From the NCBI GenBank assembly GCA_947573135.1, contig CANPDU010000002.1:1-64000 (forward strand): DNA of 64,000 nt. The letters run 5' to 3'. Of the stretch, positions 60,660 through 64,000 are shown piece after piece. The notes under the pieces were generated by a model that saw only the letters and a list, made by a program, of their open reading frames with translations, searched no databases and was not told where the DNA came from. The number at the start of each line of letters is the position of its first letter. Within the stretch, counting starts at the first letter, position 1. The position numbers and the translations under genes were made by a program. The DNA comes from an uncultured Bacteroidales bacterium (GTDB lineage: Bacteria > Bacteroidota > Bacteroidia > Bacteroidales > Muribaculaceae).

Positions 60660-61385
60660 ATGGACAAAATCACCTACCTCGACCACAGCGGTTTCATGAT
60701 CGAAACATCCGACGCGCTGCTGGTCTTCGACTACTATCGCGATCCGGCTCATGAAGTCATCAAGACTCTTCGCCACAATCCGGAGCTGCCGGTCATATTC
60801 TTCATCTCACACAACCACCGCGACCATTTCAACCACGAGATCTTTCATCTCGGCCAGAACCATAAACGACTCTACGTCATCAGCAACGACGTCTTCGACC
60901 GCGAAGACAATCTCGATGTATCGGTAAGCTGGATTAGTCCCGGCGACAGCCTCGAGAACCTCCCCGGCGACATAAGCGTCAAGGCCTATGGCACCACCGG
61001 CAAAGGCTGCTCATTCGCAGTCACTACCGCCGCCGGACGACATATCTTCCATGGCGGAGAACTCGGTGAGCCACTCGCTCACAACCACGACGCACCGCGT
61101 GATGCCGAACGCTATGCCGATCGCTTCACCGTAGCGATCAACCGCATAGCCCAAGAGCAGACGCATTTCGACCTCGCCATGATGGCCGTCGACACCACCG
61201 ACAGCCCCGACTTCGCTACCGGAGCCACACGCCTTATCGAAAAGATCGACATCGACACCTTTGTACCGTTCCACACCGACGATCCGACCGACCGGGCATG
61301 CGACTTCAGTGCATATCCGTTCACCAAAAAAGTTGACACTCGCATGATCTGCCTGACTCGTCCCGGCGAATCGGCCACATTCTGA
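60660..61385 (+). CDS. MBL-fold metal-dependent hydrolase
   Basis: 241 residues. SHNHRDHFNHEIF is the HxHxDH-like zinc motif, HGGELG and a C-terminal PFHTDD provide further ligands. Function unknown (UPF0173-like layout). It follows an 80-base gap that contains the palindrome ACATCGG-N4-CCGATGT (60603-60620), which may be a weak terminator or operator. Its terminator is at 61431-61467. Confidence 0.85.
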   Translation: MDKITYLDHSGFMIETSDALLVFDYYRDPAHEVIKTLRHNPELPVIFFISHNHRDHFNHEIFHLGQNHKRLYVISNDVFDREDNLDVSVSWISPGDSLENLPGDISVKAYGTTGKGCSFAVTTAAGRHIFHGGELGEPLAHNHDAPRDAERYADRFTVAINRIAQEQTHFDLAMMAVDTTDSPDFATGATRLIEKIDIDTFVPFHTDDPTDRACDFSAYPFTKKVDTRMICLTRPGESATF

Positions 61386-61430
61386 CCCAAAGACAAAAAA
61401 ATTCTTATCTGCATCGACAGATATCCAAAA

Positions 61431-61467
61431 GTGCCCGTTGCAACTCAATGCGACGGGCGCTTTTTTT
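61431..61467 (+). terminator. Terminator after the MBL hydrolase gene
   Basis: GTGCCCGTTGC, loop, GCGACGGGCGC (61431-61460) with one G-T pair, then seven T (61461-61467). It would also block leftward transcription from the invertible element. Confidence 0.85.
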
Positions 61468-61488
61468 GCCATATTTCGAATGCATTTA

Positions 61489-61750
61489 CAATCTCTTGTT
61501 AAGAGAAGCTTTTGAGTTACAAAGATACGAATTTTTAGTTGATTAGCCATGAATTTTAGTGTTAAAATCAGACTTTTAATGATTTTAATTTTTAGATAGA
61601 GCGGTTGTCTATATTTAACCAAATAAATCAAAATATGTCGTAAGATGTGTATAGCTCAGTTAAATTATTGAGTATTAGAGTTGTACATCATATCACGATC
61701 TCTTAACAAGAGATTAATCATACCATTTACGATCTCTTAACAAGAGATTG
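61489..61750. repeat. Candidate invertible DNA element with 18-bp inverted repeats
   Basis: Left repeat CAATCTCTTGTTAAGAGA (61489-61506) and right repeat TCTCTTAACAAGAGATTG (61733-61750) are perfect reverse complements over 18 bp. They enclose 226 bp of AT-rich non-coding DNA (61507-61732). A third copy, TCTCTTAACAAGAGATT (61699-61715, 17 bp), lies inside in the same orientation as the right one, 34 bases away. Each repeat is itself a near palindrome (ATCTCTT-3-AAGAGAT), as expected for a site-specific recombinase core. The segment carries a -7 box near its left end reading outward. Confidence 0.7.
61520..61527 (-). promoter_or_regulatory. Outward-reading -7 element inside the invertible segment
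   Basis: TATCTTTG on the minus strand, 13 bases from the left repeat. It is the only TAnnTTTG match I find in the segment on either strand. The -33 region (about 61547) reads TGG, not TTG. In the present orientation it points to the terminator at 61431-61467; after inversion it would drive 61860 with a leader of about 134 bases. Confidence 0.55.
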
Positions 61751-61859
61751 CTGCACGACAAACCGATCATTCTAAGTAATTTACTATATATCAACACATT
61801 AGAAAAACAATCGACAAATAATTGTTTCGGCAACTGAAATGCCCTCGAAATATCCTACG

Positions 61860-62447
61860 ATGAAACTATTACGCTCACTTTTTTGCATCATACTTCTTGT
61901 GTCCGCGGCTCGTTCGGTCTCGGCACAGGACTTTGCCATCAAGACAAATCTCATTGACGATGCCCTCTTGAATGTCAATATCGGTATCGAGACCGCCATC
62001 GCTCCACAATGGACAGCTGAAATGCCCGTAAGCATCAACGCATGGACTCTCAGTCACTTGCGCCGCTGGAAACACTGGACAGTGCAGCCCGGCGTCCGCC
62101 GCTGGTTCTGCGACCGTTTTGCAGGTCACTTCGTAGGCGCACACATCCACGGAGGCCAGTACAACATCGGCGGGATCGACGGCCGGATCAACTTCCTCGG
62201 CACAGACTTCCGCAAACTCAAAGACAACCGCTACCAGGGATGGTTTATCGGCGCAGGCATAAGCTACGGCTACACATGGATACTCGGGCGCCACTGGAAC
62301 GCCGAGGCCGAAATAGGTTTCGGATGGAGCTATACAATCTATGACCGTTACCGCTGCGCCAAGTGTGGTAAAAAGATCGAGCATGGAAACGCCCACCACT
62401 ACGTCGGCCCCACAAAAGCCGCAATCAACATCGTCTACCTATTCTAA
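61860..62447 (+). CDS. DUF3575 exported protein (fimbria-type locus)
   Basis: Start at ATG 61860 (MKLLRSLFCIILLVSAARSVSAQ, signal peptide); the frame is open 7 codons further left. 195 residues. The mature part (FAIKTNLIDDALLNVNIGIETAIAPQWTAE...WTVQPGVRRWFCDRFAGHFVGAHIHGGQYNIGGI...YQGWFIGAGISYGYTWILGRHWNAEAEIGFGW) is a small outer-membrane beta-barrel of the DUF3575 type. These genes open operons with DUF3868 and fimbrillin-like genes in Bacteroidales. Contains CAKCGKK, an odd CxxC near the C-terminus. Confidence 0.85.
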   Translation: MKLLRSLFCIILLVSAARSVSAQDFAIKTNLIDDALLNVNIGIETAIAPQWTAEMPVSINAWTLSHLRRWKHWTVQPGVRRWFCDRFAGHFVGAHIHGGQYNIGGIDGRINFLGTDFRKLKDNRYQGWFIGAGISYGYTWILGRHWNAEAEIGFGWSYTIYDRYRCAKCGKKIEHGNAHHYVGPTKAAINIVYLF

Positions 62448-62462
62448 CCACTCAACGCGACA

Positions 62463-63935
62463 ATGAAAAAAATCATCATAGCCTCAATCCTGCTCTCCGC
62501 CTCGGCCACTGCGGCCCGCGCCGGTGTCATTGTCGACAACGTCGCCGTCGAAAACTTCACTGCCGAGCGCAACGGCAACTACCTCGCCATCGCCATGGAC
62601 GTCGACCTTTCAGGCCTCGACGTCAAGACTAACAATTGCGTCGTGCTCAGCCCCTGCCTCATCAACGGCGCCGACACTCTCGCCCTCGACCCCATAGCGG
62701 TCTACGGCCGTCGCCGCTACTACCACTATCTCCGCTCCGGCGCCGACAGCCTCGTGCCCGCGCCCGACCGCAGTTTCGTCTACCGCGCCTCCGACCGACC
62801 CGATGCCGTCAGCTACAGCCGTCTCGTCAGCTATCAGCCGTGGATGGACGGAGCCGTTCTCACCATGCGGCGCATCGACCGCGGATGCTGCGGCAAGGTT
62901 CTCCTTGCCGACAGCGGCGAGATCGGGCGCTGCATCCTGCCGCAGACCGACACCGACATACTCAACTCGGCCGTATTCTTCCCCGAGCTTGTCTATATCC
63001 GTCCTGCAGGCGAGCGCGAAAAACACCGCGCACTTGAAGGCCGGGCCTACATCGACTTCCCCGTCAACCGCACCGAGATCCGACCCGACTACCGCCGCAA
63101 CAGCGCCGAGCTCGCCGCAATAATAGCCACAATCGACACCGTCCGCAACGACCGCGACGCCTCGATCGACACCGTCACACTCAAAGGCTACGCATCGCCC
63201 GAAAGCCCATACGCCAACAACCGCCGTCTCGCTATCGGCCGTACGGAGGCGCTACGCCGCTACATCAACCGCCTCTATGACTTCGGCTCGGCCACCGTCA
63301 TCACCGACTACGAGCCCGAAGATTGGGACGGACTCCGCCGCGCCGTAGCCTCTTCTAACCTCGACAACCGAGATGCTATCATCGCCCTTATCGACAGCGA
63401 CATGGATCCCGACGCAAAAGAAGCCCGCATCAAGGCCCTCTATCCCGACGACTACAGCTTCATGCTCCAGACTTATTATCCCGCTCTGCGCCATACCGAC
63501 TACCGCGTCTCCTACGTAGTGCGCTCATTCTCCGATCCCGCCGAGATACTGCGCATCATGAAATCACGGCCACAGAACCTCGACCAGAACGAATTCTACG
63601 TCGCAGCCAGCGAACTCGAGCCCGGATCCGACGAATTTACCGAAGTGTTTGAGACCGCCGTCCGAATGTTCCCCGACGATGAGATCGCAAATCTCAACGC
63701 CGCCAATGCCGCCATGCGCCGCGGCGACCTCGACGGCGCCGACCGCTATCTTGCCAAAGCCGGATCGTCGCCCGAAGCCGTTTACGCCCGCGGAGCTGTG
63801 GCCATCCGACGCTACGACTTCGACACCGCCCGACGCTATCTGCGCCAGGCCGCCGACGCCGGACTTCGCCAGGCCGAGCTTACACTCGACGAACTCAACG
63901 AAAAAACATCAAAATACAACTCAGAAAACAAATAA
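62463..63935 (+). CDS. DUF3868/OmpA-like protein with TPR tail
   Basis: 490 residues. Signal peptide (MKKIIIASILLSASATAARA). Residues ~20-180 match the DUF3868 beta-rich domain, ~195-345 are OmpA-like (YIDFPVNRTEIRPDYRRNSAELAAIIATID...GYASPESPYANNRRLAIGRTEALRRYI) and the last ~110 form TPR-like helices (ANAAMRRGDLDGADRYLAKAGSSPEAVYARGAVAIRRYDFDTARRYLRQAADAGLRQAELTL). Likely a periplasmic or outer-membrane anchor of a fimbria-type system. The gene is clearly GC-richer than the rest of the window. Confidence 0.85.
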   Translation: MKKIIIASILLSASATAARAGVIVDNVAVENFTAERNGNYLAIAMDVDLSGLDVKTNNCVVLSPCLINGADTLALDPIAVYGRRRYYHYLRSGADSLVPAPDRSFVYRASDRPDAVSYSRLVSYQPWMDGAVLTMRRIDRGCCGKVLLADSGEIGRCILPQTDTDILNSAVFFPELVYIRPAGEREKHRALEGRAYIDFPVNRTEIRPDYRRNSAELAAIIATIDTVRNDRDASIDTVTLKGYASPESPYANNRRLAIGRTEALRRYINRLYDFGSATVITDYEPEDWDGLRRAVASSNLDNRDAIIALIDSDMDPDAKEARIKALYPDDYSFMLQTYYPALRHTDYRVSYVVRSFSDPAEILRIMKSRPQNLDQNEFYVAASELEPGSDEFTEVFETAVRMFPDDEIANLNAANAAMRRGDLDGADRYLAKAGSSPEAVYARGAVAIRRYDFDTARRYLRQAADAGLRQAELTLDELNEKTSKYNSENK

Positions 63936-63967: not shown

Positions 63968-64000
63968 ATGAAAAAGAAATTTTATCAATTTTTCCTGTTC
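63968..64000 (+). CDS. Start of the next operon gene, cut by the window end
   Basis: ATG 63968 begins MKKKFYQFFLF, a signal-peptide-like start 32 bases after the DUF3868 stop. By context probably a fimbrillin-type or related surface protein; only 11 residues are visible. Confidence 0.45.
   Translation, partial: MKKKFYQFFLF

Follow-up and report, generated by a model that had tools for sequence, protein, structure and literature searches.

Does the non-coding DNA ahead of a fimbria operon in an uncultured Muribaculaceae genome hold a promoter that can be turned around and, if so, by which enzyme? The window, meaning the whole 64,000-nucleotide stretch that was analysed, had been described in an initial annotation as carrying perfect 18-bp inverted repeats at 61489-61506 and 61733-61750 around 226 bp of non-coding DNA. 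These coordinates and the spacing proved exact, and the bracketed segment (61507-61732) is non-coding. Judging from the letters of this and related loci, we consider it very probable that the element is a phase-variable invertible promoter, a switch of the fimbria operon, with the tyrosine recombinase encoded at C2:78780-79982 as its likely enzyme.

The left repeat, A (CAATCTCTTGTTAAGAGA, plus strand), and the right repeat, C (minus strand), are putative recombination sites that would delimit the predicted invertible segment of an A x C exchange. Each repeat arm is a palindrome, ATCTCTT-NNN-AAGAGAT, with the core GTT in A and AAC in C. A third copy of the site, B (61699-61715, minus strand, 17 bp, core AAC), lies in direct orientation relative to C and 34 bp ahead of it; both the palindromes and this third copy had been overlooked initially. 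When the window was searched for inverted repeats with arms of at least 16 bp and arm starts 60-1000 bp apart, A, B and C were the sole perfect ones in the 64 kb. Dinucleotide shuffling of the window, done 100 times, never produced a match to the paired pattern CTCTTNNNAAGAG (gap 156-216). Across all 56 contigs of the genome (2.85 Mb), A, B and C are the only matches to TCTCTTGTTAAGAGA with up to one mismatch; its reversed control pattern matched once. As in known Bacteroidales invertons, the inverted repeats surround an intergenic promoter motif, and the cores of the paired sites, GTT and AAC, are reverse complements. Because the cores of A and C, and likewise of A and B, match in inverted orientation only, recombination would be expected to invert the segment and not to lose it. 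The outer flank of A (61476-61491, GCATTTACAA) resembles the inner flank of C (61717-61732, CCATTTACGA) in direct orientation, a likeness hinting that site C arose through a past rearrangement involving A.

The promoter motif is a -7 box (TATCTTTG, 61520-61527, minus strand) that reads left, away from the fimbria operon. It had been reported as a single box 13 nt inside the left repeat, and it is the only TAnnTTTG on either strand of 61380-61900. From the box to the outer end of site A is 35 nt, within the range of 31-41 nt that marks the site class described below. The claim that inversion would move the box to 61712-61719 on the plus strand held when the position was recomputed. The plus strand from 61751 to the start codon (61860) held no TAnnTTTG, even with one mismatch allowed, and no clear -33 element was seen by eye. 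With no other -7 box before it, the operon would be served by one orientation only, and the element was apparently sequenced in its OFF orientation, the box facing away from the operon. A stem-loop followed by a T run lies to the left of A (61427-61464). The initial annotation had placed there, at 61431-61467, a terminator halting the leftward transcript; the hairpin itself stands and folds on both strands, and its role in stopping that transcript is possible only. On the plus strand it folds at -26.5 kcal/mol with a long U tail, and on the minus strand at -20.5 kcal/mol with a UUUU tail, so it looks foremost like a terminator of the upstream gene, possibly bidirectional; a consensus terminator scan did not include it. 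In the sequenced state, the lone promoter would read left to this terminator-like hairpin, and the operon, having no recognisable promoter, would be OFF.

The upstream gene (60660-61385, plus strand) encodes a beta-lactamase-fold superfamily protein (PF13483) and is convergent with a leftward transcript. To the right of the repeats, also on the plus strand, follow genes for a DUF3575 protein (61860-62447; start picked by eye, the longest open reading frame beginning at 61839) and a DUF3868 protein (62463-63935), and the start of the major fimbrial subunit gene (63968-64000), which extends beyond the window to C2:65755. The major subunit matched the Fimbrillin_C and FimA domain profiles and scored 125.9 bits against the Mfa1-family model, slightly below the cut-off of 130. 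After it, beyond the window, come Mfa2, two proteins that could be given no firm family and one that is thioredoxin-like. We read this gene set as an Mfa-type fimbria operon.

The sites belong to a wider set, for which the class CTCTT-NNN-AAGAG was defined in the present analysis. AATCTCTTNNNAAGAGA was present in 20 of 49 genomes of the genus and its reversed control pattern in three. Among 21 genus loci inspected closely, our own included, 15 had an inverted pair (up to one mismatch) whose cores are reverse complements; in the other six a single site was recognised, and some of these loci adjoin a contig end or a run of masked or unknown bases. Core letters vary from locus to locus, and variants adjacent to a recombinase show that the varying core can extend to CTCT-NNNNN-AGAG. 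Relaxed pairs occurred in 29 of the 49 genus genomes (control 0) and strict pairs in 11 of 393 genomes of the order, our own included (control 0). A scan of contigs for paired sites yielded at least 118 stretches; among the matches listed, 105 of 118 had reverse-complement cores. All 13 listed stretches whose cores do not match are titled as non-Bacteroidales (Bacillales, Helicobacter, Thermoproteota and similar) and therefore serve as a chance control; four of them, again among the matches listed, each held one pair whose cores are equal and directly oriented. Two listed stretches had matching cores and a non-Bacteroidales title (L144, a Lachnospiraceae MAG, beside a family recombinase, and L238, Cysteiniphilum), and three more (L147, L195, L226) had matching cores and no such taxon in the title. 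In 93 of the 111 matched pairs listed, a -7 box lay 31-41 nt from an outer end (mode 36), as compared to 1.7% with shuffled interiors, the range having been fixed after inspection of the genus loci. These counts support the placement of the window sites in a Bacteroidales inverton class with a near-fixed promoter position. The idea of the core as a locus-specific address was considered and rejected: of 28 comparisons between cores of the same genome, 13 gave identical letters where the background was 5.6%, so cores sharing a genome resemble each other more, not less, than expected; some of the equal pairs are nested or duplicated loci. Read from the outside inwards, the cores of 215 class sites end in T in 59% and in A in 3%, a polarity that may explain why pairs invert rather than delete.

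Comparison with related genomes, proposed initially as a way to find the opposite orientation, turned up both facings before DUF3575/fimbria operons. In G031, a similar inverton with one site mismatch has its -7 box facing a DUF3575/fimbrillin-like operon (ON), and a family recombinase follows the operon; in G018, the box of a similar inverton faces away from a DUF3575 operon (OFF). The G031 locus (L053, G031:C9, 9020-16927) holds inverton, fimbria-like operon and family recombinase in 8 kb, a compact version of the layout in the window genome. In G068, two DUF3575-DUF3868 fimbria operons with first proteins 58% identical diverge from a single inverton (L262, G068:C20, 2330-2564), which faces the left one; its inversion would select one fimbria operon or the other. 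An either/or layout was also seen at L064 (G007:C10, 9780-9972), where an inverton separates two divergent polysaccharide export operons with first proteins 77% identical. An inverton was located upstream in only three of 30 DUF3575 loci (our own included; three loci had short upstream sequence), and in 13 of the 27 others a forward -7 box stands in its place, 100-330 nt upstream; phase control is therefore not general for this operon type.

The window contains no recombinase gene by the two families searched, Phage_integrase and Resolvase, in agreement with the initial annotation, which had suggested looking within 20 kb to the right. There, 14.8 kb right of the window end and 17 kb from the repeats, a tyrosine recombinase was found (C2:78780-79982), an open frame and the genome's only full-length member of its family. 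It carries Phage_int_SAM_5 and Phage_integrase domains; Arm-DNA-bind_5 is present in two relatives scanned and absent from this protein. K275, R348, H349, H371 and Y380 (numbering of L012:18777), which we take to be the catalytic residues of the family, are invariant across 12 aligned rows. The protein is 46-51% identical to eight of nine aligned inverton-linked members and 30% identical to the ninth. In a tree whose bootstrap had not settled, it falls inside a clade of 32 rows (98/96), 14 of them inverton-linked, and the named rows of the clade are titled Muribaculaceae, Porphyromonadaceae or Bacteroidales. Its closest tree relative, in G036, has the same neighbourhood, with a DUF2130-like gene behind and a DUF6155-like gene before (genes matched by Pfam in the window genome and by eye in G036); no class sites were detected in the G036 genome.

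Across the class, sites and recombinase are often found together. For 29 of 105 listed invertons, the 3' end of a family recombinase is turned towards the site and lies within 400 bp of it, so adjacency is a frequent trait of the class and not a defining one; in the window genome the nearest such end is the one 17 kb off. Among the matches listed, 20 of 23 rows (one locus counted twice) have the promoter pointing to the end of the recombinase. A matched site pair was found nearby in nine of 30 genus recombinase loci fetched and was absent in 21, with about 1.5 kb covered per side (less at contig ends). Relaxed paired sites occurred in 27 of 37 genus genomes with the recombinase family versus two of 12 without it (Fisher p 0.0014), the E-value cut and the relaxed pattern having been chosen after seeing the data. 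With the strict motif, co-occurrence with the recombinase was weak, at 16 of 37 genomes that have the family versus four of 12 that lack it, and was set aside. At L293 (OY726003.1, 5237-5771), two tandem class-type invertons lie behind a recombinase 46% identical to that of the window genome. From its clade and its relatives' sites, we infer that C2:78780-79982 encodes the enzyme acting on the window sites.

Evidence on whether elements of this kind flip comes from plasmids and strains. On pMMCAT, an intergenic region separates a family recombinase, which shares 41.6% identity with that of the window genome, from a upxY operon, and 20 plasmid records matched this region; in 16 of these it was in one piece (at least 99% of the query, 99.8-100% identity), one copy had diverged (87.5%), and two records matched only in part. 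In NZ_CP072238.1, the pMMCAT segment, in whose sites the spacing is 2 nt less than in the window class, is inverted exactly at its repeats relative to the reference, with one other mismatch, and the inversion turns the -7 box towards upxY. The pMMCAT plasmids L292 and L295 carry two tandem invertons between the recombinase gene and the upxY operon, one of them being that inverted in NZ_CP072238.1. A search with the window region among plasmids gave no match. A contig end fell within 70 bp of six of 105 listed invertons (0.69 expected), an indirect sign, as if assemblies had stopped where orientations were mixed, though repeats or coverage could have the same effect. The opposite orientation was not found at two clear exact-class orthologues compared between Phocaeicola massiliensis DSM 17679 and TSDC17.2-1.1, in records filed as plasmids. 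In this species, ten exact-class invertons at nine loci in two strains (L126, L133, L142, L299-L304) each precede a gene of 159-168 aa and a larger lipoprotein-like gene (MNKKFLSAILFG...), and the promoters of all ten face away from those genes.

There is some chance, though we lean against it, that the element inverts through another tyrosine recombinase of the genome: Phage_integrase matches number 12, of which 10 are above the cut-off, and besides the distance of C2:78780 from the repeats, its sister in G036 comes from a genome without detected sites. Yet C2:78780 alone is a full-length member of the clade that adjoins such sites, whereas, of the genome's other recombinases, the eight that the tree includes, several of them long branches, all fall outside it; the tree left out three genome matches (C36:21198, C5 and C23).

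We think it improbable that the switch is a fossil whose sites and promoter persist but whose inversion has ceased, leaving the operon locked OFF. A recombinase not adjacent to the repeats, an OFF state that is the sole state in the one sequence at hand and the single orientation kept by two P. massiliensis class invertons in two strains would all suit such a relic; nevertheless, A, B and C remain perfect over their 17-18 bp, and the frame of the family recombinase is open and keeps the conserved residues. Least credible of all is that the palindromes are regulator operators or hairpins and not recombination sites. Each arm can fold (-3.8 kcal/mol, as do 16 of 200 shuffles), but the cores differ among loci and yet pair as reverse complements in 111 listed pairs, which would be needless for an operator, and the recombinase linkage and the plasmid inversion favour recombination.

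If the element is, as we favour, an invertible promoter worked by the family recombinase, the enzyme would bind the palindromic sites and exchange strands at the short central core. An A x C inversion was computed to leave one site between the -7 box and the operon; an A x B inversion would put the box at 61678, with two sites between. Both forms would be ON, possibly differing in strength. Among the matches listed, an extra site within 60 bp of a pair was observed at six of 106 loci (our own included), with the same core in five of the six. The available passages on Bacteroides fragilis NCTC9343 describe duplicated repeats (PMC3090145) and an inverse correlation of transcription with how many repeats separate the promoter from the genes (PMC4747536). 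The right-hand site used, B or C, might set weak or strong ON. Our broadest proposal is tentative and may well be wrong: a three-state dial (OFF; weak ON with two site hairpins; strong ON with one) within an order-wide class, on which one recombinase family would act in cis and in trans via a short, variable core of fixed polarity.

Promoter inversion before surface operons has well-known examples. In Escherichia coli, the fimS segment, about 300 bp long, carries the promoter of a fimbria operon and is inverted by a tyrosine integrase; it serves a different fimbria type, and the comparison is one of layout. Comparable in architecture is Tsr19 (BF2766) of B. fragilis, for which the passages available describe a tyrosine recombinase, an invertible TAnnTTTG-type promoter ahead of a surface operon, repeats that are duplicated on one side and an OFF state in three sequenced genomes compared (PMC4747536, PMC3090145). 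The Tsr19 gene lies beside its local promoter, whereas the candidate enzyme of the window is 17 kb away, and that promoter serves extracellular polysaccharide, not fimbriae. The capsule promoters of B. fragilis are likewise described as inverting before surface operons, through the serine recombinase Mpi (passages of PMC4747536); in contrast, the window genome gave no match to the Resolvase (serine recombinase) family, a model that matched in 10 of 14 genomes as a control. In Phocaeicola vulgatus CL10, a promoter before upxY resembles the window in its upstream recombinase gene, inverted repeats and -7 box, and its inversion was shown by PCR, according to the passages available; it differs in belonging to a polysaccharide locus with a defective adjacent recombinase, and the comparison is one of layout (PMC13114119). 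Inverton groups of gut Bacteroidota are also described, in the parts available, as intergenic, containing promoter motifs and enriched near fimbrillin and polysaccharide genes; some were tied to recombinase groups, and motifs from earlier work were recovered (PMC11892184). The letters CTCTT do not occur in the main text of that paper, and the comparison with its groups is by description only. A literature search for the motif letters gave nothing usable, the letters standing within primers in passages of two papers, and a search on promoter inversion in Muribaculaceae, judged by titles and the starts of abstracts, found no paper in the library searched.

The window element is thus a well-supported further case of a known kind of invertible promoter, as far as sequence comparison can place it. 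For a fimbria switch of a gut bacterium, the site, the likely enzyme and two predicted ON forms can now be named. The site rule, a matched core with a promoter about 36 nt in and often a recombinase end nearby, would make such switches findable by sequence across Bacteroidales, and the phase states of fimbriae and capsules would become scorable in metagenomes.
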